This document shows, one piece after another, positions 3,811 through 64,000 of a stretch of 64,000 nucleotides of DNA. The notes under the pieces are model-generated. The model searched no databases and was not told the DNA's origin. It saw only the letters and a program-made list of their open reading frames with translations. Position 1 is the first letter of the stretch. Each line of letters opens with the position of its first letter. A program made the translations under genes and the position numbers. Source of the stretch: Halorubrum salsamenti (lineage in GTDB: Archaea; Halobacteriota; Halobacteria; Halobacteriales; Haloferacaceae); contig NZ_VCNL01000010.1 in the NCBI RefSeq assembly GCF_007671685.1, positions 1 to 64,000 on the forward strand. Reading direction: 5' to 3'.

Positions 3811-3816
3811 CGCTTG

Positions 3817-8034: not shown

Positions 8035-8159
8035 AATTGTATACTACCCTCAACGCAGGCTACATGAACCTTCGCATGGCAAGAGGGCGGATGTGCCCGA
8101 TGTGTTGGAATAAATCAGTACAAGAACATCTAAGTGGGCACCTCTCTCCATTTCTGTCC
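8035..8159. promoter_or_regulatory. Divergent BREX promoter region
   Basis: This 125-nt spacer separates the GTG of pglX (minus) from the ATG of the BrxA-like gene (plus) and must drive both arms. An AT-rich GGAATAAATC at about 8,107-8,116 is a plausible archaeal TATA box for the plus arm with a leader of roughly 20 nt. No clear inverted repeat was seen. Confidence 0.4.
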
Positions 8160-20450: not shown

Positions 20451-20468
20451 TGAGCTGTCCTACCTATT

Positions 20469-20504
20469 CAGCTCATCATATAAAAATGTCTGTAGGATGA
20501 GCTG
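20469..20504. promoter_or_regulatory. Inverted repeat around the methyltransferase 1 TATA box
   Basis: CAGCTCATC at 20,469-20,477 and GATGAGCTG at 20,496-20,504 form a perfect 9-bp inverted repeat with an 18-nt spacer. The spacer contains the minus-strand TATA box of the methyltransferase, and a further TGAGCTG lies at 20,451-20,457 just before the ATG. A site bracketing the TATA box would block TBP if bound, so a repressor or self-binding by a restriction-modification protein is plausible. Confidence 0.5.
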
Positions 20505-20596
20505 AACACGACGGCTTCTCAGAGGGCCGTCTTCGCTCCTGCCCCCTCCCGACGACACTACTAATACAGTGGTTACAAATCAATCTACAATTACAT

Positions 20597-22123: not shown

Positions 22124-22212
22124 AGAGCCATGCAAGATAGAGAACAGTTCCCAATTAAACAAGTAATACGGAAAGTCGCTCCACTTACTACTGTCGAGAG
22201 AGATTTCTCGAT

Positions 22213-23289: not shown

Positions 23290-23295
23290 CCTCGT

Positions 23296-26635: not shown

Positions 26636-26650
26636 CTTACACCCCTACTG

Positions 26651-29104: not shown

Positions 29105-29281
29105 ATCTAAACAAGTCTGCGTCGACCCATCAAAATAGCACCGCCAGAATACACCAACCCAAGGAGACACCCCGATGCGTTATTCTCAATTGTCATAGAA
29201 TTACGGTGCCTGTCAGATCGTAGCATTCTGTACCCGTGAACGCTTTCGACCGGGCTAGCGATCGGACCATTGAGACAAGCA

Positions 29282-33171: not shown

Positions 33172-33488
33172 TCCCCGGACAGCCAACGGGTGGTTGCCGA
33201 TAGTGTGTGCGCTCGCCCCGGAAACGAAGGGGGAGTAACCATCATTACGATGCGTCTTTATCCACCTTCACACTCATTAGTGTGCTCCAAGATGTGATAA
33301 ATGCTTCGCCAATGAGCAAGATAGAGCAGATATTAGAGAGAAAAGACCCATCAGAGTGTTCTTTGTAGCGTGTTTGTAGAATACTATACTCTAGAAGATG
33401 GATTATTAGTAAGTAACCGCCTCTATACTGTCGAGTATTAAGTCGAAACAATCATTGCGAAGGGCGTCGTGGGTTAGTCAACAAACCC
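33172..33488. promoter_or_regulatory. Divergent intergenic region, VWA gene and AAA ATPase
   Basis: An AT-rich spacer of about 320 nt separates two divergent genes. CACACT-CATT-AGTGTG at 33,270-33,285 is a perfect 6-bp inverted repeat close to the VWA side and may be an operator. GAGTATTAAGTC around 33,430-33,442 could serve as the plus-strand TATA box. I see no small gene here. Confidence 0.35.
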
Positions 33489-36388: not shown

Positions 36389-37561
36389 TCAAAACAGTGA
36401 CTCCAACTCTCCATCACTATCCATCAGTTCCGAGAATTTATCCTCGCTTTCGTCGGTTATCTCACCGAGATTCTGCTGTGCTTCGATCGCGACCTGTTGG
36501 AGCTCTTTCACCCGTGGGACGTTCGTCACCCCACCGAGCAGCACGAGCGCTGCGACGGTCCCCTCTCCGCGGCGCGGGTAGTCACCACCGCGGACCTCCA
36601 TCGATCCGGTCTGCTCTTCGAGCCACTTGCGACCGTGCTCGATTCCCTTCCGATTGAGATACACCAGTGGTCCGGCGACGACAAGCAGCGCCCGTTCGGT
36701 GCCGTTTACCTCACATGGTAGTGTGAGCCGGCCGAGGGTCGCATTCCGCACGAGACTCGTGATCCGGTTGGTGGCCTCCGTGCTGTCGATCCTATTGTCC
36801 GACTCGCCGCGGAGTCGCGAGAGCAACCCCGTCCGCTCTGGTTCATCGACTGCGACGTCGGCGTAGCCCAGCGAGGAGATCCCGCCGCCTTTGAGCGTAT
36901 TGATGATCTCCGAAGAGTCGACCACGCTCTCGGCGATGTCACTTCCCTTGGTTATTTCGCCCGCACTGAAGAGCACGCCGAATCGTTGGACAAGCTCCTC
37001 GTTGATTGCGTCGAACCCTTCGCCAACGGACTCGCCCGAACTCCGCCATGCGTCGTTGTCGAACAGCATGAGGTTATCTACCTCATCGACGAACGTTTTG
37101 AGCGATCGGGCAGCATTCAGCGTGTAGATCCCACCCTCATCGCTACCAGGAAGAATGCCCAGGCCGTACACGGGTTCGGTGTAGATCTGTTTGAGGTTCT
37201 TAGCGATCACGGGCGCTCCACCCGATCCGGTCCCCCCACCAAGCCCGGCGACGACCAGAAACGCGTCGATCTCGTGGACCGGTACCGAGTCAAGCGCCCC
37301 TTGGATCTCGCCGATGTCTTCCTCGGCCACCTCCGCGCCAAGTTCGTTATCGGCGCCCACGCCGTGGCCTTTCACTCGCGACTGCCCGATCAGGATCCGA
37401 CGATCCGGCGAGAGGTGGTCGATGCCCTGGAGGTCTGCTTTCGCCGTGTTGACAGCAATCGCTCCACGAACAATATCCGCACCCGTGCGAGCGTCGTAGG
37501 CCAAGAACTCGTCGACCACCTTCCCGCCCGCCTGTCCGACCCCGATTAGTGCGAGTTTCAT
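36389..37561 (-). CDS. cetZ: CetZ tubulin/FtsZ-superfamily GTPase
   Basis: A 390-residue CetZ protein: N-terminal MKLALIGVGQAGGKVVDEF and the tubulin signature GGGTGSG at 108-114, then an acidic GTPase core. The ATG at 37,561 is chosen because the superfamily starts at this strand; the five residues before it are not conserved. A TAATAATATG box about 20 nt upstream suggests a leaderless message. CetZ proteins in haloarchaea control cell shape, not division. Finding one in an accessory region suggests a plasmid or island copy in addition to chromosomal ones. Confidence 0.93.
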   Translation of the reverse strand: MKLALIGVGQAGGKVVDEFLAYDARTGADIVRGAIAVNTAKADLQGIDHLSPDRRILIGQSRVKGHGVGADNELGAEVAEEDIGEIQGALDSVPVHEIDAFLVVAGLGGGTGSGGAPVIAKNLKQIYTEPVYGLGILPGSDEGGIYTLNAARSLKTFVDEVDNLMLFDNDAWRSSGESVGEGFDAINEELVQRFGVLFSAGEITKGSDIAESVVDSSEIINTLKGGGISSLGYADVAVDEPERTGLLSRLRGESDNRIDSTEATNRITSLVRNATLGRLTLPCEVNGTERALLVVAGPLVYLNRKGIEHGRKWLEEQTGSMEVRGGDYPRRGEGTVAALVLLGGVTNVPRVKELQQVAIEAQQNLGEITDESEDKFSELMDSDGELESLF

Positions 37562-37688
37562 GTGAACACACCACATATTATTACGCGGGTGGAACAGATA
37601 AACGTTCGAAGAATACTGGGAAAGCGGCGTGAGGTGGTTCCAATGGTGACCCCAATACCCTACTACCTTCGTTTCATAGGTGCTGGCA

Positions 37689-37922: not shown

Positions 37923-38076
37923 CGAGTTGGTACGTCTGTTCTCTATCGGACTCTTCTCTCTACTATCGCATAGTTCACCCTTGTACCAAATACAACGGTC
38001 GCCCGCCAGGTGGATCGTTACTTCCGATATGCCAGAAATCGATAGTATTTCATGAATATAACTCGAATCATGAACG

Positions 38077-38358
38077 ATGTACGATCTCACTGGCTTTCAG
38101 CGCGATCTCCTGTATGTTGTTGCGGGGCTTGAGGACCCCCACGGGCTCGCGATCAAAGACGAACTCGAAGACTACTACGAAAAAGAAATCCACCATGGCC
38201 GACTGTATCCAAATCTCGACACGCTTGTCGAGAAGGGGCTGGTCGAGAAAAGCCAGCGTGATCGACGGACCAACGAGTATACTACTACTCGTCGGGGCAC
38301 CAGAGAGATCAAGGCGCGGACTGAATGGGAACAACAGTATATCGATCATACGAACTGA
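38077..38358 (+). CDS. PadR-family regulator (PhiH1-repressor-like)
   Basis: A 93-residue winged-helix protein: DLTGFQRDLLYVVAGLEDPHGLAIKDELE, then YYEKEIHHGRLYPNLDTLVEKGLVEK and a YTTTRRGTREI wing. This is the PadR fold in the compact form of the halovirus PhiH1 repressor group. It probably acts as a homodimer repressor. No target was identified; the gene is convergent with the 180-residue hypothetical gene, 11 nt away. Confidence 0.85.
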   Translation: MYDLTGFQRDLLYVVAGLEDPHGLAIKDELEDYYEKEIHHGRLYPNLDTLVEKGLVEKSQRDRRTNEYTTTRRGTREIKARTEWEQQYIDHTN

Positions 38359-38369
38359 CACTCTTGATC

Positions 38370-38912
38370 CTACTCTGAGTCGTGTTTATACGGTTGATCT
38401 AGACCACCAGCAATCTCATCGACTTTCTCCTTGAGAGAGGCATCTGGAGAGACTAATTCATCGGGCTCGTACTGTCTGAGATAGTCGAGATATTTCGGTT
38501 TGAATTCCACAAGAATTTGCCACATTTTGATCAGAATTTCATCGACTTCATCACTATCGACCTCGACGTAAATATCTCTCAAAGACCGGTTCCCACTATT
38601 GGCTGTCCAGCTACTTGTTTGAGGGTCATATTCATCAAGAATTGTTTCCGCCGAGTCCACCAAATCGGTCGCAAGTTCACTCTTTGCCTGATACTTGGGT
38701 TCGTCTTCCGTTACTTCTGGATAATTGTCATAATATCCGTGTCGTCCTGGTGGGTCATTAAGTATGACCGTTGCCGTTCCATCATCGTGATGGTTTACCA
38801 GGACTGTCGAGTTCTCACAATCGAATCCTAGTTTACCGCATTTGATTGGAAATGTATAGACTCGATCAATCTCATCACGCATCCGAGAGCTTAGGTTAGG
38901 ACTCGCGGTCAT
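38370..38912 (-). CDS. Hypothetical protein
   Basis: A 180-residue soluble acidic protein beginning MTASPNLSSRMRDEIDR. No family was recognised. There is a beta-rich middle (NSTVLVNHHDDGTATVILND) and a helical C-terminus. Two cysteines (KCGKLGFDCEN) are not in a zinc-knuckle arrangement. Codon use is more AT-rich than in the defence genes. It converges with the PadR gene. Confidence 0.6.
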   Translation of the reverse strand: MTASPNLSSRMRDEIDRVYTFPIKCGKLGFDCENSTVLVNHHDDGTATVILNDPPGRHGYYDNYPEVTEDEPKYQAKSELATDLVDSAETILDEYDPQTSSWTANSGNRSLRDIYVEVDSDEVDEILIKMWQILVEFKPKYLDYLRQYEPDELVSPDASLKEKVDEIAGGLDQPYKHDSE

Positions 38913-39151
38913 ATCCGCGATGGAATCTCCTTGATAGTATATGTGGGGGTCGTGAATTAGAGTGTTTTACAACTAGACGTCTAGGTGGTGTGTCTGGAGG
39001 TCGCAGATACTACGGTCCGGTCCCGCCGGCGTGTCTGTTTCGAGGCAATATCGAAGTTGCCGCGTGGGATCGACGTTGTAGCAGGTGTATCCATCTGGCT
39101 GGTCGAACGCGCGGGTGGGTATTTATTAACATCTCCTGCCTGCGTTACGAC

Positions 39152-39883
39152 ATGTCAAAGAAAGCTGTTGTACAAGGTGAATGGCACATCTTCGCAACGG
39201 ATCGTAAATCGTTGATGGACCGTGACACCGAGCAATATCAGGCCCTCTACTGCGAAGGTCGAAGTGGGACGATCACCCCTCACCCTCTTCGTATTCGGTA
39301 CAACCTCTACGTAATTGGAATCCTAACTCTCAAAATATGTTACCTGTTTGTTGGTCATCTCTATTCTAAAATACCAGTCAGTTCCGGCTATGAAATCGGA
39401 AAAGAAGCGAGGTGTGAAGATCTGTATTTCGACGATACCATTGATCTTGAAACGCGGGAGATATTCGATTCCTATAGCCTCAGGACAGTGAATCTGACTC
39501 TCGGCATTTTGCTAACGACATTTGTGTTCCAATTTCTATACACTTTCATGGCTAACACTTTTTCTATCGGTTTCCCCGGAATCTTTACAATTACAACTTC
39601 AATCCCAATCTGGATACTGACACTGTTACTCGGAGTGCTTCTTCCTTTTGTATATTCCTCGCTTCTAATTAGCTATGCGAACACCGGTGCCCGCGACAAA
39701 AAGATGGCTAACACCATCACTGAAAGGTGTAACGAGCGAGGTCATGATTCCGTACTCGTTCTCGTGGGTGACAAGCATGTTTGCCCCCTCACTGAGGAAC
39801 TCGAAAAACACGGATGGGAGGTAGATCCTCATCGTAGCAACACTCTACCCGCACGAATCCATCAGCACCTCGAATTTGACTAA
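39152..39883 (+). CDS. Membrane protein with two or three TM helices
   Basis: A 243-residue protein from the ATG at 39,152; TTTATTAA at 39,122-39,129 lies 23-30 nt upstream, which fits a leaderless promoter. Hydrophobic segments occur near 48-66, 118-138 and 146-172, and a soluble C-terminus reads VLVLVGDKHVCPLTEELEKHGWEV, resembling the TraB/GumN-type GxxHV motif. That similarity is short. The gene is AT-rich. The 2.77-kb cassette is inserted 4 nt after its stop codon. Confidence 0.6.
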   Translation: MSKKAVVQGEWHIFATDRKSLMDRDTEQYQALYCEGRSGTITPHPLRIRYNLYVIGILTLKICYLFVGHLYSKIPVSSGYEIGKEARCEDLYFDDTIDLETREIFDSYSLRTVNLTLGILLTTFVFQFLYTFMANTFSIGFPGIFTITTSIPIWILTLLLGVLLPFVYSSLLISYANTGARDKKMANTITERCNERGHDSVLVLVGDKHVCPLTEELEKHGWEVDPHRSNTLPARIHQHLEFD

Positions 39884-40265
39884 AAACACGCTTAGGCTCT
39901 GTTGAAATATTTAAGATCTGATATGATCTGCGTGCGAGATACAGAGGCTGAATGCATCACGAACTCGAACTGCTTTACTCGATCGGGGGCGTCGCGAAGA
40001 TCACACGCCGGAGAATATCAGAAATCTGATCAATAGCGGCACAACTGGCCGGCCAACTCATTTCTTCCCATTTGTTGCCCGGATAGCGAGCGCTCGACTC
40101 CACGGCGCGCCGGTCGAACCCGGCTGTCCTGCCGCCGTGTGTTGGTTATACCGTACAGCAGGCTCGACGATAATCGGCCGTGTAGCCCTATCTGACCTAG
40201 ACGGAGGTGTCAGGCCAGCCGGCTCCAGCGGTAGTTCAGTTGGAGCGAGACACAGCGGTCCCGCG

Positions 40266-49292: not shown

Positions 49293-49571
49293 ATGGGTCT
49301 CAGCGCTAACAACCCGAGACACGTACACATCACGAAGTGCGGCCTCTGTGAGGAGTGCGTCGATCTAAACAGAGCGATTCCGGCCCCGTGTGGAGAGTTA
49401 TACCACAAAGATTGCGGGGCAAAGTACACCGGTGCGCTGGACTGGTTCCGCGGTGCCTTCAGAGCATACAAAGACAGCATCGTGTATCGGTCCCACCCCA
49501 CGCCGAGCGGAGGACTGGTACTCACGGACCGAGTCAATCAGGTGTGTTGTAGCCCTCAGTCATCTGGATGA
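49293..49571 (+). CDS. Small Cys-rich protein (zinc-binding)
   Basis: A 92-residue protein from the ATG at 49,293, placed by the TATA box just upstream. CGLCEECVDLNRAIPAPCG followed by YHKDCGAKY gives four or five Cys and a His, likely one zinc site. The last 38 nt overlap the end of integrase 2 on the other strand. No family was recognised. The promoter and Cys pattern make it more likely than not to be real. Confidence 0.5.
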   Translation: MGLSANNPRHVHITKCGLCEECVDLNRAIPAPCGELYHKDCGAKYTGALDWFRGAFRAYKDSIVYRSHPTPSGGLVLTDRVNQVCCSPQSSG

Positions 49572-50856
49572 GCTCGTCTGTTCGGTCGAGGAGAGTCCCC
49601 GGGTTTGACTGAAGCACAGGCTTGAGCTTCTTGATGGCGCGGAGATCGTCGGCATTCACTTCCCCGTCCATCACCAGCCCGAGTAGATCACGGTCGGTCC
49701 CAGTCTCGGAAATTTGGCGAAGAGTGTCCTGTTCGTCGACGCTCGCATCAACTGGAGCTGGACACCACAGGCACGTTTCGCGGTGCCGGGGCGTGTATTC
49801 ACCGCATTCGAGGCACTTGATCGGTGCAATCTCGGCTCTACTTTCGGCCTCGTCAACCGGATGTCCGTCCGCCGCAGCTATATGCTTCCCCGTCTCCCCG
49901 GCGAACGCCGAAATGTAGTGAGCGGCAGCGTTCGAGCCACGCTCCCACCCGAAGTGATTCTCTAAGTCGACCTGATTAATTTCCCTCCTAGACGCCAGAA
50001 CACTGGCTCTCGAGCGACGAAAATTCTGTGGATTACAGGGCTTAGCGATTTCTACAGCATCACGCGCCTTGTAGAAAGGATACGAGTACTGCGTGTAACT
50101 AATTGATTCGTTCCGGGTGAGCTTCGTCCATATCAGCGTGCTGTCCGTGATCCCACCGTCATCGCGAGCAGGATGGAACTCTTTCCAGCGACGCAGATAG
50201 GGCGCACCAACGTAGAGGTAGACGTCTCTCGCTCCTGTTTTCGTATCCTCCGGGATTGAGAGAAGGATATGATCACCACGATCTTCGACATCTCCCCACG
50301 TGAGATTCCAGAGTTCGCTCTCAGGGCGCGCACCAGACGACCACTGAATCGCAAGAATCGCTGGGTCCCGATGGTTGTATTCTGCACGGTCCTCGATCAG
50401 TCGGGTCACGTCTGACCAGCGCAGAATATCTGAGGCAGATGGCGTCGGGTTGTTTGTCCCGTGACTTGTTTTGATCGATGCAAAACGGACCGGGAGGTCC
50501 TCCGCGTCGTCGACATCAAGCATCACCGATGCGAACTTCCGCAGCCCGCTGTAGTAGTCATTCTTCGACTCACCAGCCAGGGATTTTGAGGAAACCCAGG
50601 AAGTTATTTCATCAACTGCATCAGCGCCGGTGGACTCCGAAAGTGAATCTGTTAATCGTTGTGTCCCACAAGCGATTAAAAATACGACGGTTAGAACCGA
50701 GTTATGGCGAGTTATACCAATTTTGTCGGACTGGTCACGAATAGTTTTGAGGCGCGTGTCAAATTTCTTGAGAGTCTCCCGATCAGCAGAACAGAGATCC
50801 GTACTCTCGGAGATACGCTCCCGAAGGCGTCGGAGATTCCGAGCTGCCTTAGACAT
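49534..50856 (-). CDS. Tyrosine recombinase 2 with zinc ribbon
   Basis: A 440-residue phage-type integrase. Catalytic candidates: Arg in WSSGARPESELWNLTW, Lys in EDTKTGARDVYL, PQNFRRSRASVLASR for the box II Arg (with Gln where His is usual), and Tyr in NAAAHYISAF. A C-terminal zinc ribbon (CLECGEYTPRHRETCLWC) follows, as in many haloarchaeal plasmid integrases. It is not closely related to integrase 1. Its gene sits next to the partition pair, as on integrative plasmids. Confidence 0.83.
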   Translation of the reverse strand: MSKAARNLRRLRERISESTDLCSADRETLKKFDTRLKTIRDQSDKIGITRHNSVLTVVFLIACGTQRLTDSLSESTGADAVDEITSWVSSKSLAGESKNDYYSGLRKFASVMLDVDDAEDLPVRFASIKTSHGTNNPTPSASDILRWSDVTRLIEDRAEYNHRDPAILAIQWSSGARPESELWNLTWGDVEDRGDHILLSIPEDTKTGARDVYLYVGAPYLRRWKEFHPARDDGGITDSTLIWTKLTRNESISYTQYSYPFYKARDAVEIAKPCNPQNFRRSRASVLASRREINQVDLENHFGWERGSNAAAHYISAFAGETGKHIAAADGHPVDEAESRAEIAPIKCLECGEYTPRHRETCLWCPAPVDASVDEQDTLRQISETGTDRDLLGLVMDGEVNADDLRAIKKLKPVLQSNPGTLLDRTDELIQMTEGYNTPD

Positions 50857-52805: not shown

Positions 52806-55745
52806 TTATACAGTATCATCCCCAAAGAGATCATCAAACTCGGGCGGGTCGTCAGTTGAGCCATTTGTCGGTTCCTCGTGATCGAATGACTCCGGGTCCT
52901 CTGTTTGGCCGAGATACACCGTTTCCTCGTCAGTTTGAGTTGTCATGTGGCCGTGCTCATTAATGTGGATCGTCCCGCCGCCTTTGAGTCGATAGACGAT
53001 GTCGGCGGCAGCCGTAACTTCCTCGTTGGTGATAAACGAGCGTCCCGATCCGATGCGTTCGAACGGGCGTCCCTCTGCATCCACACTGATCTTGTACCCG
53101 TGAGTGGGCCCCTCGTACGAATCGCCTGGTTCAAGATCGGTTACGTCAGGGACCGATGGTTTGGTATACGTCTGTACATCGGGTCGCTCGCCGTCGACCA
53201 GTTCGCCCTCTAACACTGAGTCTTCAACCTCCCAATGGAGATGCTCAACGTCCGCGTTCCCAAGCTGTTCTTCCCAGTCGTATTCGCGGAAGATGTTCTC
53301 ATCGACCGTGTCTCGTGCGTACAGGACGTACAGTTCCGACTGCCGATCCGGGTTGTCTCCTGTTCGAAGAATCCGTCCAAGCGTTTGGATACGTTGACGA
53401 ACGCTACCGCTTGAGACCCGAATGATGCCGGTGTCGGCATCGGGGACGTCAACACCCTCGATCAGGGCTTTGACACTGAGCATCACGTTTGCGTGGTCAT
53501 CGGCACGGAACCACTCCATCGCGAACTCATTCCACACCTCGCGGCGGTGTCCAGAGTGATACATCACCGGCCAATAGTCGGGCTGTGCGAACAGATCCTC
53601 AATTGCCTTATCGACCTCTTTGAGCTCCGGAAATTCGTCGTACAGCTGTGATCGATAGCCACTGGCGCTTTCTTGCGACACTTCACGCTCTCGTGTTTGC
53701 CCGAGCCGTTCGTACGGAGCGATCAGCTGTTTGAGCTGCTCGATACGCTCTTGGAACACGATCGCTTTCTCACCGGGATCAATCTCCTCTAAGAGGCGCA
53801 GCGTGATCGCCTGTCGGGCGACGGCATTTTGCACAAGGTTCCGGCGCTGTCGGGTGAGCGTGAAGAACTGACCCACTGCTGGATGGGGTGACTCATCCGA
53901 GTTGAGAATGGTGTGTAATTTCTGATGGAGGTTGCCGTTCAGCTGGTACAGCCGGTTGGCGTACCGCGTGCGGATTTCTGTAAGGGCATCCGTGATCTCG
54001 CGGCTGAGGCTGTCGTACTTTTGTCGCTCAGTGGGTGCGAGATCAAACCCGACATAGTTGATTTTGAAGCTTGGGATAAGCTTGCGTTCAATTGCTTCGC
54101 TGTACGTGAGGGTGTAGAACGGCTCGCCTAAGCGGTTGAAGAGGTTGGCCTCATCGTCGCTGGGATCACGTTCGCTGTGCGGCTTTTCCGTTGGCGTCGC
54201 CGAAAGCCCCAGCGTCGCAGTGTGATGATACCCTAAGACGTTCGAGTGGACATCACCAGTGTAATTGTGGCACTCGTCTGCAACAAGCAGGTGTGACGGT
54301 GTTCCAGCCGCTTCAAGACAGGAGGCGAGATAGTCGTTTTTGACAGCGGTGTTGACGATCGTTACGAGTACCGTGATGTCGTCATCGGCGAACGAATCGC
54401 GGTGGCCATCGCCTGCCCAGCCGAGATCCTCGATGGGGACGTTGAGCTTCTGGGTTAATTCGGTGAGCCACTGATACATCAACACCTTCGTCGGGACAAC
54501 GATGGTCACAACGCCGTCGTCAGTCTCATCGAGCCACCGACGGATGACTTCCAACGCCATCACCGTCTTGCCGGCGCCAGTCACCACCTCTGCAATTCCC
54601 TCTTGAGGAGCAGTGTGATCTGTCCCTGTAAACCAGGTGTTAGCTGCCTCCGCTTGCCAGTCATACAGCGCAAAGTCATTCGAAAACTCGTAGGAACGGT
54701 CCCCTACAAACTGAGTCAGGTCTGCTCGAGTAAGCCCGCTACCACTTTTAACGAGTTCTTGGCGGGCTGTTTTCGGATCCCCGGCGTCATGAATCCGCTG
54801 GAGATCATCAGCTGAAAGTCCGCGAAGCCGGCTCTCAACAATATCGTATCGGCTGTTGATTTTCGTTCGTAGGCCTCTGCGTTTGGTTTCAACATCTCGG
54901 AACTCATCTTTCCGCTGGAGATTTGGCTCGACATTGTCCCCGTCACGCGCACTCGGCTTGAGATAGTGGCGGTGAAACTGGCGGTACCACTGTTTGCGTT
55001 TCGACCAGCCACCCGATTCGCGGTACATGTAGTACTTCATCAACGCCTGTTTGGCGCGTTTCGGAGGGTGGTCGCCGAGAGCGCCTTCCCGTTTGAGATA
55101 ATTCTCGTATTTTCTGAAGAGGTCTGGCTGCCGCAGCCGGGTGAGCGCTTGCTCCGGATCAACGTCCGTAGGAATTTGGTATTTACCGTCGACGTCTTCG
55201 AGATATCCCAGATGACACAGGAGTTCAGGGTAGCCACGAAGCCCCTGTTGACTAAACTGATAGCCGTACTCTGTCTCTAGCGTTGTTTTAATTTTGCGTG
55301 AGCTTGCTGGCTGCTCACACTCATAGGTAATCGCATGGAAGATCCGTTCGAGCGCTTCGAACCCCTCGGGGTATTCGGCTCGAAGCACCCAGCTGCGTTT
55401 CAGCGCGTTGTACACGCAATTGGCAAACGACAGCTCACCAGCCAACCATCGCTGGCTGTCGATCCCGACAGCAAGTCGTTCGGCATCATCAGGACCGACT
55501 TCGTCAGCTTCGCGGATGAATCCTGAGCGCGCCAGGTCACTGATAATGTGACGCGTCCACGAATCGCTGAGCGTATCGTCATGGTCTCGTTCAATCGCGA
55601 CTTGACATGGCTGGATGAACTCCGCTCGGGTTGGGGGCGTTGGCTGCTTAGCAAGAGTAGTGAGAATCGTCTCGTAACGGCCCTGCTCGTTTGGCAACCC
55701 TGGAATCGGTGGTGGGAAGCGTCGAACCAATAGTTCATCTACCAA
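52806..55745 (-). CDS. SF2 helicase with C-terminal repeat-type domain
   Basis: A 979-residue DEAD/DEAH-like helicase starting at a TTG (an in-frame TGA lies three codons upstream, and no early ATG exists). Walker A VTGAGKT is near 387-393, motif II is DECH near 488, LGLSATPT follows, and the C-terminal lobe has GVDVPDADTGI and QRIQTLGRILRTG. Residues about 875-947 (GYKISVDAEGRP, then GGGTIHINEHGHMTTQ and VYLGQ) are a separate small domain that also makes up the two proteins encoded at 56,107-57,872. The N-terminal 350 residues are helical and unassigned. It probably works with those proteins on DNA. Confidence 0.82.
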   Translation of the reverse strand: MVDELLVRRFPPPIPGLPNEQGRYETILTTLAKQPTPPTRAEFIQPCQVAIERDHDDTLSDSWTRHIISDLARSGFIREADEVGPDDAERLAVGIDSQRWLAGELSFANCVYNALKRSWVLRAEYPEGFEALERIFHAITYECEQPASSRKIKTTLETEYGYQFSQQGLRGYPELLCHLGYLEDVDGKYQIPTDVDPEQALTRLRQPDLFRKYENYLKREGALGDHPPKRAKQALMKYYMYRESGGWSKRKQWYRQFHRHYLKPSARDGDNVEPNLQRKDEFRDVETKRRGLRTKINSRYDIVESRLRGLSADDLQRIHDAGDPKTARQELVKSGSGLTRADLTQFVGDRSYEFSNDFALYDWQAEAANTWFTGTDHTAPQEGIAEVVTGAGKTVMALEVIRRWLDETDDGVVTIVVPTKVLMYQWLTELTQKLNVPIEDLGWAGDGHRDSFADDDITVLVTIVNTAVKNDYLASCLEAAGTPSHLLVADECHNYTGDVHSNVLGYHHTATLGLSATPTEKPHSERDPSDDEANLFNRLGEPFYTLTYSEAIERKLIPSFKINYVGFDLAPTERQKYDSLSREITDALTEIRTRYANRLYQLNGNLHQKLHTILNSDESPHPAVGQFFTLTRQRRNLVQNAVARQAITLRLLEEIDPGEKAIVFQERIEQLKQLIAPYERLGQTREREVSQESASGYRSQLYDEFPELKEVDKAIEDLFAQPDYWPVMYHSGHRREVWNEFAMEWFRADDHANVMLSVKALIEGVDVPDADTGIIRVSSGSVRQRIQTLGRILRTGDNPDRQSELYVLYARDTVDENIFREYDWEEQLGNADVEHLHWEVEDSVLEGELVDGERPDVQTYTKPSVPDVTDLEPGDSYEGPTHGYKISVDAEGRPFERIGSGRSFITNEEVTAAADIVYRLKGGGTIHINEHGHMTTQTDEETVYLGQTEDPESFDHEEPTNGSTDDPPEFDDLFGDDTV

Positions 55746-56106
55746 TGTGTTTCACCCCCGGCGAGCTGAGCTGTGTATGGAATTTCAATAGAGGCTAGAG
55801 AAGAGACGTTGCTTGTGTCATACTGAGACGTACACGTAGGTGCCGGGTGTAATCTACCGTGAGCGGTATTCCAGTCGGTGAAGCGCGTCTGAATCATTCG
55901 TATGACACCAAAGCCCACATGATAACGTAGTATCGTTCAACCAAGTAGAGATAACAATCTTGCGCTTGATTATTTTATTAGGCCGCGGTTAGAGTCGTAT
56001 TGAAGAGGCCGCTGAATACAGATTTCAACAGAGCCGTGTGTGGATGATTTGAGGAAAAAATCACACATCGTCTGAGGCAGGGATATCGTCCGCTTGTCCG
56101 AACCAA
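55746..56106. other. Spacer with an insertion-sequence end
   Basis: No gene is visible in 361 nt. GATTTCAACAGAGCC at 56,021-56,035 is identical to the sequence at 812-826 and matches the cassette end family. No left partner or target duplication was found. A weaker copy, AATTTCAATAGAGGC, is at 55,781-55,795. An old insertion here may have separated the helicase gene from the repeat-domain genes. Confidence 0.45.
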
Positions 56107-57000
56107 TTATTGATCGGCATCCCGTGCCGCTGCGACGAAATACCGCTGATCTGAAACGATCGGTTTGGGGGCCACCCCCTGGTCGAACTGGCTAAGATGC
56201 CCAAGATACACTGGCAACAGCCCGTCGGGAGCGTCCTCACTCTCAGTATGTTGGAGCCGCCGGGTCACTAGCCGCTGGGCAGCCGGACCAGCAGCCTCAC
56301 GCCAGTTCTGATACGCCTCCATCACCGCTGCGTCCATCTCTGCCGGCACAGTACGCCGATTAAGGTTCCCCCAGATATGGCCGTGTTCGTTGATATAGAG
56401 TCGTCCTCCTTCTGGCCTGAACTGTGTGTATTTGGCGACAAGCTCGTCATGATCAAAGGCAGAGTCAAACTGATAATCCTGCCAGCGCCAGCGTAAGACG
56501 CCATCAGAACAGACACTCCACGCCTCTCCGTGATGGAATGGAAGCCCGGTCCACACACGGATTGCTGATTGGGTCGTAAGGAGATCGGGATCGTTGGAGA
56601 AGTCACTAAAATCGAAGGTGCCTCCGATCTGACCGAGATACACGGGGATGTATCCTGAGTTTACCTCAGCAGCGCCTACCTGATCGTAGGATCCAGCGGG
56701 GACCTTTGTAAGCACTTCACCGCTTGCCGTGAGTCGCACACTGCCGTAGCCGTCTGGTTTCCCCACCTCACGAAGCAGTTCATGGAGTCCATCGGGCACG
56801 CTCCGGAGTGCCTGGATTTCACCACGGTGACTCCATCGGAGAGCAGTGCCGTGTGACTGTGAGGCGATAATACTGTAACGAGAGCCGCGATACGCGGAGG
56901 GCCACGGATCAGTTGGCGTGACTGTCACCTGGCGATCGGCAGCGGTGGGGACCTCGGTCGACACGGCTGTCAGGGACGCTGTAGGCGGTGTTTCTGTCAT
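56107..57000 (-). CDS. Tandem repeat-domain protein A
   Basis: A 297-residue protein with two copies of a domain of about 100 residues. Copy 1 runs from YRGSRYSIIASQSHG through GSVRLTASGEVLTKV to IPVYLGQIGG; copy 2 runs from WSVCSDGVLRWRWQDYQF through GGRLYINEHGHIWGN to LLPVYLGHL. The same core (a strand near the start, then GG-hydrophobic-x-[TN]-E/Q-x-G, then VY[VL]G) is found at the C-terminus of the helicase. The domain is not one I recognise. The start overlaps the stop of protein B by 4 nt (ATGA). No catalytic motif is visible; a binding role is likely. Confidence 0.7.
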   Translation of the reverse strand: MTETPPTASLTAVSTEVPTAADRQVTVTPTDPWPSAYRGSRYSIIASQSHGTALRWSHRGEIQALRSVPDGLHELLREVGKPDGYGSVRLTASGEVLTKVPAGSYDQVGAAEVNSGYIPVYLGQIGGTFDFSDFSNDPDLLTTQSAIRVWTGLPFHHGEAWSVCSDGVLRWRWQDYQFDSAFDHDELVAKYTQFRPEGGRLYINEHGHIWGNLNRRTVPAEMDAAVMEAYQNWREAAGPAAQRLVTRRLQHTESEDAPDGLLPVYLGHLSQFDQGVAPKPIVSDQRYFVAAARDADQ

Positions 57001-57872
57001 GTATCGTCACTAGGATCGACACGGTGGTCATCCGGTGACAACTCTTTGCTCTCGTAAGAATCGACCGCGGCCGCCCACCCCTCCAGCGAGGCTTCTTCCT
57101 CATCCGTGAGGGGGTCAGTCAGTCGGGTTGGTTCCTCAACGTGGATCGGACGGTTCGTCGCATCCAGTGTTCCAACGTACACCGGAATCATATCGACATC
57201 ACCCCGGTTACGACGGAGCTGTAACACCCGCTTGACCGGACGGGGCAGCGCCCGAAACTGCTCACGCACGTCCGACGGCGAGCGATCTGGTGGGATCTGT
57301 GTGAGCACATCGCCTTGCGGCGTCACACGAAAGGAGCCCCCCTGCGGACGGAGTCGTCGGAGTTCGCTCACGATCGTGTCCGGCAGTGAGTCAGCAAATG
57401 GATGACGGAGCTTGCTCTCGGCATTATGCCACCAGAACCGGTCACCAGTAAACGAGTACTTGGCACCGTCGTACACGCTACTCCACAGATTCCCTGGTTG
57501 GAGCTCTGTCGGGCTCAGCGCGACGGAATGAGTAGGATCGTCCGGAGGCACAAGCCGGCCAGTCAGATCAGTAGATCCAACGTAGAGCGCTTCATACGCA
57601 TCATCTGCACCAGCCATTTCAGCCCGTGTGAGCACATCACCCGCCTCAGTGACTCGAATACGCCCGCCTTGTCGTTTGATCCCCAGGAGATTCTCGACGA
57701 TAGCATCCGGTACTGGATCGAGACGGAGTCGATCCGTACCGTTGTACGCCTGCCACCAGACCTCCCCCTCTGCGTTCACGCTGAAACTGTAGCCGCGATA
57801 GTAGTCTGTCCAGCTCTCACCGGGCGCAGAAGGAGTCTCCGAACCCGCATCGGAGGTTCTGTCAGTCGTCAT
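56997..57872 (-). CDS. Tandem repeat-domain protein B
   Basis: A 291-residue protein from the ATG at 57,872; an ATTATATGTG box 25-35 nt upstream supports this start. It holds two copies of the domain seen in protein A and the helicase: YYRGYSFSVNAEGEVWWQ through GGRIRVTEAGDVLTRA to EALYVGST, and YDGAKYSFTGDRFWWHNA through GGSFRVTPQGDVLTQI to MIPVYVGTLD. The order and spacing are the same as in protein A, so the pair arose by duplication. It leads the operon and is divergent from the AddB-like gene, with 194 nt between. Confidence 0.7.
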   Translation of the reverse strand: MTTDRTSDAGSETPSAPGESWTDYYRGYSFSVNAEGEVWWQAYNGTDRLRLDPVPDAIVENLLGIKRQGGRIRVTEAGDVLTRAEMAGADDAYEALYVGSTDLTGRLVPPDDPTHSVALSPTELQPGNLWSSVYDGAKYSFTGDRFWWHNAESKLRHPFADSLPDTIVSELRRLRPQGGSFRVTPQGDVLTQIPPDRSPSDVREQFRALPRPVKRVLQLRRNRGDVDMIPVYVGTLDATNRPIHVEEPTRLTDPLTDEEEASLEGWAAAVDSYESKELSPDDHRVDPSDDT

Positions 57873-58066
57873 ATGAGACCATTCTGGCGCTGACACATAT
57901 AATCGGTGGCAGCCAGCAGTACGACAAGTATTGCTTCGCGGCTGGCGGAGTGTAAATCAATAGAACCCCACGGCTCAGTCTCTGGGATCCACACAACTGG
58001 GCAGATCACGTAGGTGGCCTCAACCTATGCCGAAAGTTCATATGTGACTCCTGGGACAAGTAGTAT
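57873..58066. promoter_or_regulatory. Divergent promoter of repeat-domain and AddB-like genes
   Basis: The 194-nt spacer has a minus-strand ATTATATGTG box near 57,896-57,905 serving protein B, and a plus-strand TTCATATGTG near 58,036-58,045, 22-31 nt before the AddB-like ATG. Both look leaderless. No operator repeat was seen, but the layout allows joint control of the two arms. Confidence 0.4.
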
Positions 58067-61000
58067 ATGTCAACGCAGGATTTGCTTGTGGGTCCTCATC
58101 TCTCTGAACTTGAAGCGGCAGCGTTCGAGCGGGTCAAATCGGAGATCGGCGACCAGCCGAACAGTATCATATATCTCTCCCAGCGGGTCCGGTCTGATAC
58201 CACTACGCGCCAGCGGTGGAGTCAGTACGGCTCCACAGCATGTCTACGTATCGAGACGTTCGACCGACTCGTCACGACGTGCTATGAACGAGACCAGTAC
58301 AAAGGAGAAGTCACTCACATTGATCAGCCCTTGCTATACCGGCTTGTCGAGGCTGGCATCGAACAGTTAGAAACATCAAATCCGTTTTCAGCTGACGGAC
58401 AGCTGCCACGGGCAGGGCTAGTTCAAGAGGCCGAACAGCTGTACACGGCGCTGGAACGTGGGGGACTGCTATCAGCAGACGCAATGGAAACACGACTCTC
58501 CGAGCTCGGCCTCTCGGATCGCGCCAACGCCGTGGCAGCCCTCGCGACTGCGATCGAGGAGGTTCGTGACAGCATGTTGGCTGACGAACTCCCCGAGACT
58601 TATCAGACCGAGCGGATGCACCAGCTTACGACGACTACAACGCCGCTCGAAGAGCTACTCCCGGCTGTTGATGCCGTCGTAGTGGGGGGATTCACCCGCT
58701 TTGACGCGCTCGAACGCCAGCTGCTCGAGCGGATCACTGAGACCTGGCCGACCGTCGCATTGCTCCCGTCACAACATGAGGGCGGTGAACCGGCCGGTGT
58801 TGATGCTGGCGCTCAGCCTGCAGCCGAGACGTATAACGCACTTGGCTTTACCCCAACACCGATCTCGACGGACGCACGCCCAGCGATCGCCAACCGACGG
58901 CGGGTGACACAGAACCTGTATCGCCACCCGGACGAGTCACCGCCCGTTGCCGACATCGATCCAGCCGCGCTTGCGCTAACGATCACCGACTCTGAGACAC
59001 TTCCAACCGAGGTCAGAGCAGCCGCACGAGAGATTCGGCAGCGGCTGGCAGCTGGCACCGATCCAGAAACCATCGGTGTCGTACTCACAAATTCGGCCGA
59101 ATACAGCGATACAGTTCGCGAGGTGTTTGACGCCTATGAGATCCCGTTTGTACTACAGACAGAGCAGCCCCTCGCCGAAACCGCGATCGGCACCGCCGTC
59201 GAAGCGGTCTGCCAGCTGGCGACAGAGCCACGCTCCGTCGAGACACTACTGGATCTGCTCACGAACCCGCTGGTGACAGCCACGGACACAGAGGGTACTG
59301 TGGATCACCATTCGCTGGCGCGGGTGGCAAGCCGGACAGACACAATAGCGCTTGCTCCGGTCATAGAACATCTCGATGCGGAAACGACTGCGGGTATTGA
59401 GGCACTGATAGCCGATGTTGACGCCGTTGCACAGAGCCCGCTTGCAGATCTGCCCACACGTCTCACCACACTGTTAGACCAACTGGGAATCACGACCTCG
59501 CTGTCAGACGCCACAGACAACGCCGACCTAAACCTTGACCAGGAGATGCGTGCAGCCGACCGACTTAATCGCATCAGCGAGACACTTGCGATGACCGCGG
59601 GAGTCGCGGACCACGATCAGGGGACCGTTATGGAGCGCCTTGAGCGTGCCATCACGTATGGAGCCGTCAGGGCACCCGCAGCGGCCGAGGAACACAGTGT
59701 CGTTGTCTGTGGGCTGTCCGATGCGGACGCTCGGGAGTGGGATTACGTGTACGTGCTTGGGATGACCGCCGCGCACCTGCCATCGGATCCCGAGCACATG
59801 GCGTTTACTCAGCCCATCTACGATGCCCATCGGGATTTCGCACAGCAAGATACCTCCCTGGAGGCACGCTACCATCTCGGCACGTTGCTCCGTAGTGGCG
59901 CCACGCTACGGCTGTCAGCGCCCCAACGGACTCTCGGCGGGGAACCGCACGTCCAACCGGATCTTCTCACCGAGCTCCGACGTGTCATCGACTATGAGGC
60001 GATCACGACAACGCCAGAGGAGACGCCAGGCACACGTGAAGATGTCCAAACGGCGATCAGTACTGCTGTCACTGCTGGAGACGAGTCACGGCCACAACCC
60101 CACATTGACGCCGCGGTCGCAGCCGGGACATTCAGTGAGGCGATCGGCGATCGGATGCATGCCGGCGCCGCCTGTGCGGCAGCTCGTGCTGATCCGGAGC
60201 GGCTCTCAGCGTATGATGGCCAGCTGTCTCCCGAGATGGTTGCCCAGCTACACCCAGAGACCGCGCGGGAACCCTACAGCGCGAGCCGCCTCGAAACATA
60301 CGCTGCCTGTGGGTACAAATACTACATGCAGCGGGTGCTTGAGATCGGCGCGCCCGAACCACTCACGCGTGAGCCGCACGCAGGGCTTCGGGGCTCATAC
60401 ATCCATGATGTGCTCGAACACTACTACCGAACGGTCCAATCCGATGTGGGTGAGCCGGTCGATCCTGGCGGTGACTTTCAGACTCGGCAGGCAACACTGC
60501 TAACCGTGGCTCGCGATCGGCTGGCGGACGCCTTCGCTGGGTACGCCGCCACAGCGTTCCAAGAGGAGTGGCTCACCGGTGTGCTAGCGGGACTCGACAC
60601 ACCAGCCGAGAACCCCTATTACGGGCCGACGGCCACGAAAGACGGCGAGCCGGTCGCAAAGGGGTTGCTCTACCGCTTCCTCGAACACGAATTTGCCGAG
60701 CCAGCCAAAACGACTGCTCGCCCAACATGGCTTGAAGCACGCATTGGAGATCCACACCCAGGAGGGACACCGGTGGGAGACGGGCCAGCCAGCATCCAGA
60801 CCCCGACTGGCGAAATCCAACTACATGGCCTGGTCGACCGTGTTGATACGGTGCGGGGGACGAGCCCGACGCAGGCGGTCGTCCGCGACTACAAAACTGG
60901 CTCTGCGATTCCAAGCGCCAGCGATGCCCTGCTCGGCCTCCAGTTTCAACTCCCACTATATGCGCTCATGATCGAAGCCGCACTGCCAGAGCTCGAGACA

Positions 61001-61414
61001 GTGGGAGCGGCCTACTACCAGATATCCCCCCCGACAGCAGTCTCGTCGCGACGCGGCCTCGTCACCTCACAGGAGATGGCTGTCTACCACGGCGACGACG
61101 AGGTGTCGACACCACTATTGCGCCACTCGTACCCGCACTTTGAAACGCACACTGCGTTCCGACGGTTCCTCACTGAGAAAACGCCAGCCCGGCTAGGCGA
61201 GCTCACAGCAGGCATTGCTGGCGGACAGTTCCAGCCAACACTGCTTGAGCCAGCGGATGCCGGCTGTCGTCACTGTGACTACGCACAGGTGTGTGACGTA
61301 CGCCATCATCAGCGACAGGAGACGATCGAAACAATCGACACCGAGGGGATACCCGCCTATGTGCCGCCTGCTGCGCGCGGTCTGTCGCCAGGAGACGTTG
61401 TGGAGGTGAACTAA
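58067..61414 (+). CDS. addB: AddB-like helicase/nuclease subunit with Fe-S cluster motif
   Basis: A 1,115-residue protein of the AddB/RecB-nuclease type. The C-terminal nuclease has GLRGSYIHDVLEHYY, GLVDRVD with the metal Asp, then VVRDYKTGS. One Cys near 748 (YAACGYKYYMQRV) and CRHCDYAQVC near 1,066-1,075 make the four-cysteine Fe-S pattern of AddB. The N-terminal two thirds is a helicase-like fold without an intact Walker A, also as in AddB. It ends 2 nt before addA, which it surely works with in double-strand end processing. On a defence island this may be repair or anti-phage DNA degradation. Confidence 0.82.
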   Translation: MSTQDLLVGPHLSELEAAAFERVKSEIGDQPNSIIYLSQRVRSDTTTRQRWSQYGSTACLRIETFDRLVTTCYERDQYKGEVTHIDQPLLYRLVEAGIEQLETSNPFSADGQLPRAGLVQEAEQLYTALERGGLLSADAMETRLSELGLSDRANAVAALATAIEEVRDSMLADELPETYQTERMHQLTTTTTPLEELLPAVDAVVVGGFTRFDALERQLLERITETWPTVALLPSQHEGGEPAGVDAGAQPAAETYNALGFTPTPISTDARPAIANRRRVTQNLYRHPDESPPVADIDPAALALTITDSETLPTEVRAAAREIRQRLAAGTDPETIGVVLTNSAEYSDTVREVFDAYEIPFVLQTEQPLAETAIGTAVEAVCQLATEPRSVETLLDLLTNPLVTATDTEGTVDHHSLARVASRTDTIALAPVIEHLDAETTAGIEALIADVDAVAQSPLADLPTRLTTLLDQLGITTSLSDATDNADLNLDQEMRAADRLNRISETLAMTAGVADHDQGTVMERLERAITYGAVRAPAAAEEHSVVVCGLSDADAREWDYVYVLGMTAAHLPSDPEHMAFTQPIYDAHRDFAQQDTSLEARYHLGTLLRSGATLRLSAPQRTLGGEPHVQPDLLTELRRVIDYEAITTTPEETPGTREDVQTAISTAVTAGDESRPQPHIDAAVAAGTFSEAIGDRMHAGAACAAARADPERLSAYDGQLSPEMVAQLHPETAREPYSASRLETYAACGYKYYMQRVLEIGAPEPLTREPHAGLRGSYIHDVLEHYYRTVQSDVGEPVDPGGDFQTRQATLLTVARDRLADAFAGYAATAFQEEWLTGVLAGLDTPAENPYYGPTATKDGEPVAKGLLYRFLEHEFAEPAKTTARPTWLEARIGDPHPGGTPVGDGPASIQTPTGEIQLHGLVDRVDTVRGTSPTQAVVRDYKTGSAIPSASDALLGLQFQLPLYALMIEAALPELETVGAAYYQISPPTAVSSRRGLVTSQEMAVYHGDDEVSTPLLRHSYPHFETHTAFRRFLTEKTPARLGELTAGIAGGQFQPTLLEPADAGCRHCDYAQVCDVRHHQRQETIETIDTEGIPAYVPPAARGLSPGDVVEVN

Positions 61415-61416
61415 CA

Positions 61417-64000
61417 ATGGTAGAGTACGACCGTCTGACGGACGAACAACAACGAGCCGTTGACGCACTCGATCGGAACGTCACGCTGACTGCCGGCGCC
61501 GGAACAGGGAAGACGACAACGCTCACGGCGAGATATCTCAAAATGATCGAAGCGGGTATTGCGGAAAGCGACGATCCAGCAAACGATCTGCTTCTACCAG
61601 AACAGATCCTCACGACGACGTTTACCGAGCGGGCCGCAAACGAATTGGAAAGCAGCATCCGGACAGAAATTACGGAACGTATCGCCACGCTTGATGCCGA
61701 GGAGTTTCCTGCATGGCGCCGGATTGCTGACGAGCTTGAGCATGGCTACATTCACACCCTCCACGGGTTCTGTGCACGCCTGCTGCGCGAACATGCGCTA
61801 CGACTTGAGCCACTTGATCCGGGGTTCACGACGCTTGACGAAAATGAGGCGACCGCGATGGTCCACGACGTTGTAGAGACGACGCTCCGGGACCACGAGA
61901 CACACACGGCGACACAAACGCTTGCCCGACGGTTTTCGCGAGCACAGCTCCATGACGTACTCACCGATCTGTTGAGCGAGCGCCCAGCAAGTCTCACGTG
62001 GGCACAGCGGTGGGCAGACGCCAGCAAAGCAGAATATCTCTCTTTCGTCGAAACCGAACTACATCCGATCGATCCAGATGAGGCGGCTGCTCGCTTAGCC
62101 GATCCGACCGTGGTCGGTCCACTCACAACACTACAGGGGCTGGTGGCGGATCCACCAGCCATCTCAACGGAGGGGAAAGCGTGGCAACGTGCGGTCAAAG
62201 TGGTGGAGTTGTTGGAAGACGGGTATGATGATGGCGTCCCCTCACGGGCCAAGCAAACGCTCATCGCACAGCTCAGCGGCGCATTGACCACGGCGGACGG
62301 CGCCAAATACGCGAGTTACACTGGCGCCGCAACGCACTGGAACGATCACCCACAGAAGACAACATTCGACACAGCCATCGAAGAGCTTGTTGCGGCGCTT
62401 GAGCCGGAAACCTACGCTGTGGAGGTAGATCTAGAGCGAGACCGCCAAAGCTACCCGTTCGTGACGGCACTCGCCGAACTCACGCAAATCGCTGGTGAGG
62501 CGTACGCTGAGCGCAAACAACAGCAGAATACCGCCGACTTCACAGATCTCGTCTCATACACCGTGGACTTTCTGGCAGCACCCAAGAACGCCCATATCCG
62601 CAAGGAGCTACAGGCCCAGTTCGAGTATGTAATGTTAGATGAGTTTCAGGATACGGACCCCAGACAGTGGGATCTGATTCGGTTACTCACGACCTCACCA
62701 CAGGGTGAATTCGACGCGAACAATATTTTCGTGGTCGGAGACGTTAAACAGAGCATCTATCGATTCCGGAACGCCGACGTCACCCAGTTCAAAGAAATTA
62801 CAGATATGCTTGCCGCCGCAGGTTCGGCGACCGACGCTACAGGCGGGGACACAGCGGCAGACGATCAACTCTCCACGAACTTCCGGACGCTCCCCGCAGT
62901 GCTTGAACCGATCAACGAACTGTTCGGTGCGGTGTTTGATGTCGACGGCGAACCGTACGAGGCAACGCCACAACCGCTCACTCCAGCCCGTGGGGATCCG
63001 GCAAGCCTCGGGAGTACAGAGTATCTCGCAGTCCCAACAGATTCGGAGTTGCGAGCCAATCGGTGTGGCCAGTATGACGCGTTCGCTACGGCCGGTCCTG
63101 AGCATGACGTTGAACTGGAAGCGATGGCGCTAGCAGCACGGCTCTCACAGGTGTTAGCCGAACCGTATCAGGTATATCCCGAATCAGACGAAGACCGGGC
63201 AGGTGATGAGCCGCGAGCAATCAAGCCAACAGATATCGCAGTGTTGTTGCGCAGCCGGACACACCTCAAGAGCTTCGAGCGGGCCTTCGAAGACGCTGGA
63301 GTTCCATATTCGGTAGCATCCGGCATTGGGTTCTATGAGACGACCGAAATTACCGCCCTCCTGAATCTGTTTCGCGCCCTCGCGGATCCGCAGGATGAGC
63401 GAGCGTTGTATGCCACATTACGCTCACCACTCTTTGGATTCACTGATGACACGCTGGCAGCGCTCAAAACGGACGGCGACACGCTGTGGAGGGCGTTAGC
63501 CGACGCAGACGCCACAGAACTACAGACCGCGTATGAACTTCTCACGACGTGGCGCGAGGACGCCGGCGTCTCGGAGCCGTCGCCAGCGACAGTTGACGGC
63601 TCGTGGGGCGCATACCTCACAGAGATTATTGACGCGACAGGCTACCTCGTCAGCGTGAGTGCCGGTGAGCGGGGCCAACAGGCGGTGGCGAACGTCGAGA
63701 AGTTTCGCGAACAACTGCGGGGCTTTAGCGATGAGGGCGTGCGCAGTCTCACAACGCTCGTGAACCGGATTGAGCGGCGCGTTGAGTTAGGCGGGCGTGA
63801 GAGTGAAGCCGACACCACAGATGAGGGCGTCCAAATCCTCACAATCCATGACGCGAAGGGGATGGAGTTCCCGTTCGTCGTTGTCCCCCAGATCAGTCGG
63901 CCGTTCAAAGACGACGCCGCGATCGGCGACGGCAAAGTCGAATTCGAGCGAATCGGGGATCAGTACGCCGTCGGCATGAAAGCGCCCAGTCCGGATGACC
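61417..64000 (+). CDS. addA: AddA/UvrD-like helicase, 3' end beyond the window
   Basis: 861 codons are visible and the frame is open at the window end. Walker A AGAGTGKTTTL is at 26-36, motif II YVMLDEFQDTDP near 404-415, GDVKQSIYRFRNAD follows, and ILTIHDAKGMEFPFVVVP near 807-824 is motif V. This is the UvrD/AddA order. A C-terminal nuclease domain, if present, would lie outside. It starts with an ATG 2 nt after the AddB-like stop, so they are one operon. It should unwind DNA ends with its AddB partner. Confidence 0.88.
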   Translation, partial: MVEYDRLTDEQQRAVDALDRNVTLTAGAGTGKTTTLTARYLKMIEAGIAESDDPANDLLLPEQILTTTFTERAANELESSIRTEITERIATLDAEEFPAWRRIADELEHGYIHTLHGFCARLLREHALRLEPLDPGFTTLDENEATAMVHDVVETTLRDHETHTATQTLARRFSRAQLHDVLTDLLSERPASLTWAQRWADASKAEYLSFVETELHPIDPDEAAARLADPTVVGPLTTLQGLVADPPAISTEGKAWQRAVKVVELLEDGYDDGVPSRAKQTLIAQLSGALTTADGAKYASYTGAATHWNDHPQKTTFDTAIEELVAALEPETYAVEVDLERDRQSYPFVTALAELTQIAGEAYAERKQQQNTADFTDLVSYTVDFLAAPKNAHIRKELQAQFEYVMLDEFQDTDPRQWDLIRLLTTSPQGEFDANNIFVVGDVKQSIYRFRNADVTQFKEITDMLAAAGSATDATGGDTAADDQLSTNFRTLPAVLEPINELFGAVFDVDGEPYEATPQPLTPARGDPASLGSTEYLAVPTDSELRANRCGQYDAFATAGPEHDVELEAMALAARLSQVLAEPYQVYPESDEDRAGDEPRAIKPTDIAVLLRSRTHLKSFERAFEDAGVPYSVASGIGFYETTEITALLNLFRALADPQDERALYATLRSPLFGFTDDTLAALKTDGDTLWRALADADATELQTAYELLTTWREDAGVSEPSPATVDGSWGAYLTEIIDATGYLVSVSAGERGQQAVANVEKFREQLRGFSDEGVRSLTTLVNRIERRVELGGRESEADTTDEGVQILTIHDAKGMEFPFVVVPQISRPFKDDAAIGDGKVEFERIGDQYAVGMKAPSPDD

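Follow-up and report, generated by a model that had tools for sequence, protein, structure and literature searches.

The 64,000-nucleotide stretch of Halorubrum salsamenti DNA analyzed here (contig NZ_VCNL01000010.1, positions 1 to 64,000; the window) carries three adjacent minus-strand genes, for a superfamily 2 (SF2) helicase that we call HEL and two repeat proteins, RepA and RepB, whose products share one domain. We found that HEL, RepA and a protein of the RepB or RepC type (RepB/C; RepC, a third repeat protein, is encoded further along the contig) constitute a real three-gene unit, hereafter the core: in 391 haloarchaeal genomes, a sample of the class, RepA and RepB/C were present at the same locus as every intact HEL (21/21). 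We lean, with modest confidence, towards reading this unit as an undescribed modular defence core that works with exchangeable effectors, and we infer that HEL and the Rep proteins themselves would serve in defence.

The shared domain and the three-gene unit

A first-pass annotation had proposed that one domain occurs five times in the three genes, which profile matches, sequence shuffles, HHalign and predicted structure all bear out. The domain spans ~75–110 residues; two further copies lie in RepC, and the rest of the host genome holds none beyond those in HEL, RepA, RepB and RepC. For most pairs of copies, the alignment score topped all 300 shuffles, by up to 21 standard deviations (RepA1–RepA2). 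The HEL copy is the weakest of the five and was hence tested separately. A profile of this copy from 16 genomes picks up RepA proteins (E = 1.5e-7 at best), has HEL and the Rep proteins as its sole matches among 3610 open reading frames (ORFs), and aligns with the Rep copies at an HHalign probability of 97.8%. Across 94 copies, two tryptophans and three glycines are near-invariant, alongside a G-G/R-x-T-E region and a P-V-Y-x-G motif. A single-chain AlphaFold2 prediction from 20 RepB/C sequences (mean pLDDT 91.6) shows a beta3-alpha-beta3 module twice; two helices inserted into the second copy carry an RLVxRRL motif that is invariant. The predicted order of elements is likewise beta3-alpha-beta3 in the HEL copy. 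No significant relative of the domain was found in Pfam, NCBIfam, PADLOC, PHROGs or the PDB. In Foldseek, PCNA ranks first for RepB, yet with E of about 0.1 and TM scores of 0.13–0.16 this likeness to a sliding clamp is no match, and a viral structure library likewise returned none for RepB. A viral origin was also rejected, as homologues of RepB/C were absent from viral contigs and phages and those of RepA from viral contigs.

HEL itself has a helical N-terminal part of ~340 amino acids (aa) followed by an XPB-like SF2 fold of the DNA translocase family with intact motifs, including Walker A (GAGKT, residue 390) and a DECH box (490). Library scans found no nuclease domain in it.

Among the 391 genomes, the domain profile matched 28 and the helicase profile 25, and an intact HEL is encoded in 21 of the latter; at these loci RepA, RepB/C and HEL stand together with 2+2+1 domain copies, so that the co-occurrence check suggested at the outset came out in favour of the three genes. 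The exceptions are remnants, namely HEL fragments (G265, G383 and G092), a locus broken by Ns (G314) and a RepC without helicase (G319). The hypergeometric value for the three-gene co-occurrence (7e-34) ignores shared ancestry and shows joint travel only. The core is patchily distributed (19/86 genera in several families) and lies on at least five plasmids, in Halobaculum magnesiiphilum, Halalkaliarchaeum sp. AArc-CO, Natrinema pellirubrum, Haloferax lucentense and Halorhabdus tiamatea; this scatter and plasmid carriage point to lateral spread. Beyond the 391 genomes, the search covered a phylum-wide sample of 227. All four hits in this sample were haloarchaeal and none came from outside Halobacteria, the share of that sample outside the class not being given. 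Weak single-domain matches in three genomes (L073–L075 in G230, G245 and G333) were judged to be chance.

Partner gene sets, mosaic ancestry and AddAB

The genes beside the core differ from locus to locus. Commonest is a set of SNF2 helicase, zinc/coiled-coil protein, Mrr-like protein and RepC, found at 11 of the 21 core loci and, in composite form, in the window's genome (G000) and G337; pSVX82-3 of Haloferax lucentense carries it with HEL-RepA. Translational coupling ties RepC to its module within this set (gaps of -4, -4 and -4 in L056). Four core loci of one origin carry a NERD/Card1-like nuclease with a possible ribbon-helix-helix protein, and these are near-identical in different genera and recently transferred. 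On plasmid pNATPE02 of N. pellirubrum, a long-A Argonaute and a PLD nuclease partner precede the core in the run pAgo-PLD-RepA-RepB-HEL (gaps of 64, 100, -1 and 38), the one locus of this kind; the ago-agaP genes (the APAP system) of this species alone restrict a plasmid and a virus in Haloarcula hispanica (PMC11442185). Dnd genes adjoin the core in G030 (DndC, DndD) and Pbe genes in G125 and G337 (PbeA-like, PbeC, DndE-like), while G314 has a gene for a DndH-like protein immediately upstream of RepA, and Haloarcula amylovorans (L081) one for a relative at 6 kb from RepC. Canonical AddBA lies beside the core in G000 and, in G162, next to the NERD operon. Another kind of PDDEXK-UvrD pair comes after RepB in G125 and after RepC in G319, and lies next to HEL in G337; such AddAB-like pairs (L062:966-6375, L055:2034-7569, L146:10693 onward; PDDEXK protein of 857–907 aa, UvrD protein of 947–976 aa) are unlike the window AddAB. 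On the short contig of G200 the core has no recognised partner. Genes near the core repeatedly include one for an MBL-fold protein, often accompanied by those for vWA and ~400-aa proteins (L047, L051, L054, L058, L112 and L148).

Three of these loci (G000, G337 and G125) are composites with one HEL, one RepA and two RepB/C. In trees, the SNF2-type RepC proteins form one clade (99/99) that includes the G000 and G337 copies, and the other RepB/C of these two genomes falls elsewhere. RepA and RepB of G000 group with the Argonaute/NERD types (100/100; 97/95), and its HEL with the Pbe-type HEL of G125 (99/98). Forced agreement of the trees was rejected (approximately unbiased (AU) test, p = 0.0005–0.0007), as was a recent RepB/RepC duplication in G000 (AU p = 1.8e-46). 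From these discordant positions and AU rejections we read the window locus as a mosaic of two core-type systems, with the caution that long branches advise. Translational coupling, also proposed earlier, holds for RepA and RepB, which overlap by four bases, and does not extend to HEL, which lies 361 bases downstream of RepB; in the other operons of the type RepA-RepB/C-HEL that were measured, this distance is 9–38 bp. The 361-bp spacer may mark the seam of the mosaic.

The divergent AddB/AddA pair does face the repeat genes across a common control region, AddB starting 170 bases from RepA, as the first-pass annotation had described. It consists of a UvrD helicase subunit adjacent to an AddB with a PDDEXK domain; by curated models P0004 is AddB-like and P0005, the portion of AddA inside the window, AddA-like, both under every AddAB equivalog cut-off. 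Of the system originally proposed, the helicase and both repeat proteins stand as a conserved unit, and AddAB drops out as an obligatory member: the 57 of 292 haloarchaeal genomes with an AddB homologue mostly lack the core, and AddB lies no nearer to it than to BREX. Per genome, AddB is commoner with the core (8/17 vs 49/275, p = 0.008), which shared defence islands could likewise explain. Nor is the pair an ordinary fixed chromosomal copy, being patchy, with this AddA the only one in G000 and with relatives in SNF2-zinc operons. Three of ten close relatives of the window AddB (G110, G135 and G100, the last with one extra gene) lie in a run of SNF2, a short zinc-protein relative, AddB and AddA, and that SNF2 and short zinc-protein pair adjoins DUF1156 and/or DUF499 genes on haloarchaeal plasmids (BREX-related/Hma-type). 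Since it sits beside the SNF2 and zinc-protein genes, the window AddBA may belong to that module and not to HEL-Rep. A 747-aa Argonaute relative directly adjoins AddA in G100, G159 and G074 (L159, L160 and L165). In L187, L191 and other haloarchaeal plasmids, an SNF2 gene and one for a ~390-aa coiled-coil/zinc-ribbon protein lie beside DUF1156 and/or DUF499 genes, sometimes followed by AddB-AddA; these sets appear to be BREX-related/Hma systems in a split-helicase form.

Candidate function and its rivals

The nucleases vary by locus, HEL has none, and composites hold two RepB/C that each follow their own module; the simplest reading of this pattern is a shared HEL-RepA translocase with one adaptor per effector set. 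HEL would be an ATP-driven DNA translocase or strand separator, held with RepA and RepB/C in one machine through the common beta3-alpha-beta3 domain. HEL and RepA would form the common part and RepB/C the module-specific adaptor that hands DNA to the co-encoded effector, be it Argonaute-PLD, the NERD-like nuclease, Dnd/Pbe, an AddAB-like pair or SNF2 with the zinc/coiled-coil and Mrr-like proteins, and the outcome would be defence against viruses and plasmids. The window would then represent a mosaic version, HEL-RepB-RepA plus AddBA plus SNF2-zinc-Mrr-RepC. That the complex forms, that DNA is translocated, that RepB/C acts as adaptor and that the core itself defends are steps that we infer. 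More speculative, and to our mind doubtful, is the wider idea that a domain without library match builds an adaptor-translocase chassis that gives mechanistically unrelated effectors access to DNA, one helicase serving two modules in composites such as the window.

The defence reading, first put forward on the grounds of domain sharing and gene position, is strengthened by operon-like links to tested systems (Argonaute-PLD and the Dnd/Pbe families), with defence by the core itself still presumptive. Several points weigh against the modular-core model. The links comprise one Argonaute locus, four near-identical NERD loci of one origin, two Pbe loci and one Dnd locus, and defence islands gather unrelated systems. 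APAP worked in H. hispanica without RepA, RepB or HEL (PMC11442185). By hand counts, 3/17 core loci and 10/62 loci of BREX PglZ have an AddB no more than 10 kb away (Fisher p = 1); it is thus as near BREX as the core, and its position alone is no evidence. A binding partner for the Rep domain, which has no known relative, is a guess, and the discordant HEL position in G000 involves long branches and calls for caution.

Some of these points would equally suit HEL-RepA-RepB/C as a complete defence system alone, with the Argonaute, Dnd, NERD and SNF2 genes as mere island neighbours: defence genes cluster, AddB is equally near BREX and core, APAP functions without the core, and one core locus (L067, on a 14-kb contig) has no recognised nuclease partner nearby. 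We regard this as unlikely, however, as no nuclease is detectable in the core and RepC belongs to the SNF2 operon, joined to it by 4-base overlaps and sharing the history of that module. The curated matches of HEL raise another alternative, in which the Rep domains would read a phosphorothioate or methyl mark and HEL would move along the DNA, as in phosphorothioate-dependent restriction. Among curated models HEL scores best against PbeA (6e-47) and TIGR04095, a model for phosphorothioation restriction (4e-31), Dnd, Pbe or DndH genes are neighbours at four loci, and a Dam-like methylase gene, recognized by eye from sequence, lies beside the core in L061 and L067. Yet the matches cover the helicase region only (HEL residues 354–798 for the PADLOC PbeA model), HEL lacks the PLD domain of PbeA, and at most loci, the window included, no Dnd genes adjoin the core, so that we hold a modified-DNA reader to be improbable. 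XPB-like and AddAB-type enzymes also have repair roles, and the core's presence on at least five plasmids would suit a plasmid-borne DNA repair or replication-restart complex. Such a complex appears very unlikely given the patchy occurrence (19/86 genera), the junctions with nucleases of known defence systems and the BREX set in the same island. A modular defence core remains the reading that we favour.

Locus layout, surrounding island and known systems

Genes were called as longest ORFs on the 78.9-kb host contig (Table 1). The window end halves the locus, whose plus-strand run AddB-AddA-SNF2-zinc-Mrr-RepC goes on along the contig, with mutual overlaps of 4–13 bases among the last four genes.

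Table 1. Features of the core locus and its continuation beyond the window (contig numbering).
Feature	Position	Strand	Remarks
HEL, SF2 XPB-like helicase	52806..55745	-	979 aa, TTG start; C-terminal repeat domain
Domain copy 1 (C-terminus of HEL)	52914..53126	-	Profile match
Spacer RepB/HEL	55746..56106	-	361 bp; no convincing ORF
RepB	56107..57000	-	297 aa, two domain copies; groups with Argonaute/NERD-type RepB
Domain copy 2 (RepB second)	56188..56541	-	Profile match; helical insert with conserved RLVxRRL motif
Domain copy 3 (RepB first)	56623..56913	-	Profile match
RepA	56997..57896	-	299 aa, two domain copies; 4-base overlap with RepB
Domain copy 4 (RepA second)	57162..57494	-	Profile match
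Domain copy 5 (RepA first)	57564..57821	-	Profile match
Divergent control region RepA/AddB	57897..58066	.	170 bp
AddB, PDDEXK_1 nuclease	58067..61414	+	1115 aa; optional module
AddA, UvrD helicase	61417..65187	+	1256 aa; crosses window end (64000), complete on contig
SNF2 helicase	65317-67098	+	Beyond window
Zinc/coiled-coil protein	67095-70508	+	1137 aa, coiled coil, ~38 CxxC motifs; beyond window
Mrr-like protein	70496-71449	+	Beyond window
RepC, third repeat protein	71446-72342	+	Domain copies six and seven; beyond window

The Mrr assignment is based on relatives (PF04471, E = 1e-6 in L056), and the protein is probably inactive, as the catalytic Q/E-x-K position is mostly lost in the alignment as read by eye. 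Residues 143–401 of the zinc protein match a viral family of unknown function (phrog_36169, 7e-17), and tblastn found no matching phage record.

Elsewhere, the window holds a complete BREX set in a type 5-like arrangement (907-19164; BrxHII, PglX, BrxA-like, two different BrxC, BrxB and PglZ), adjoined by three N6/N4 DNA methylase genes and an Mrr_cat gene (19194-24504, the latter at 20597-22123). Next come genes for an AAA_5 protein and its 441-aa partner, perhaps McrBC-like, and for HEAT-repeat and vWA proteins (25310-33186); proteins related to the vWA, HEAT and AAA ones turn up repeatedly in the vicinity of core or AddAB loci, as in G337 and G072. The defence island further includes a CetZ tubulin-like gene (36389-37576; PF21011, 2e-77). 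In the window, GC content drops to 0.47 from about 0.57 around it at 38001-40000, and an integrase-like gene lies at 49534-50856.

As the first-pass annotation had suspected, no named system with this content emerged from the libraries or papers searched. Open-licence papers on archaeal and BREX/Dnd/YprA-type defence do not describe the repeat proteins, an earlier description elsewhere being possible. The nearest PADLOC model to the helicase part of HEL is PbeA of PbeABCD/CxC-DndE (PMC6459918, PMC10853773), which combines PLD and SF2 domains; HEL differs in its N-terminus and its C-terminal Rep domain, and PbeB-D, including PbeC (a CxC ABC ATPase) and the DndE-like PbeD, were not found in the window locus, which has nine genes. 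The SNF2 protein of the locus matches HmaA (1e-54) of DUF499-centred BREX-related/Hma systems (PMC12839542), with which the locus also shares a degenerate restriction-nuclease domain. The Rep-locus proteins give no DUF499 ATPase or DUF1156 methylase match, however, and HEL and the Reps are absent from those systems where looked at. BrxC, PglX and PglZ are not part of the core locus, the BREX set lying ~34 kb away, and the window AddAB pair differs from AddAB/RexAB in being island-borne and optional to the core. Argonaute and PLD genes were not found in the window locus, and the Rep proteins figure in the APAP paper as hypothetical genes at most (PMC11442185).

Of the surroundings of some ago-agaP operons, the authors of that paper remarked only on a helicase gene. 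Mesophilic Argonautes have no helicase activity, and the authors guessed that the neighbouring helicase helps (PMC11442185). Here two repeat proteins invariably accompany this helicase, so that the missing gene set can be named and the open question becomes testable. If our reading is true, a recurrent defence-like multi-gene unit based on an undescribed domain would join the poorly charted archaeal repertoire.
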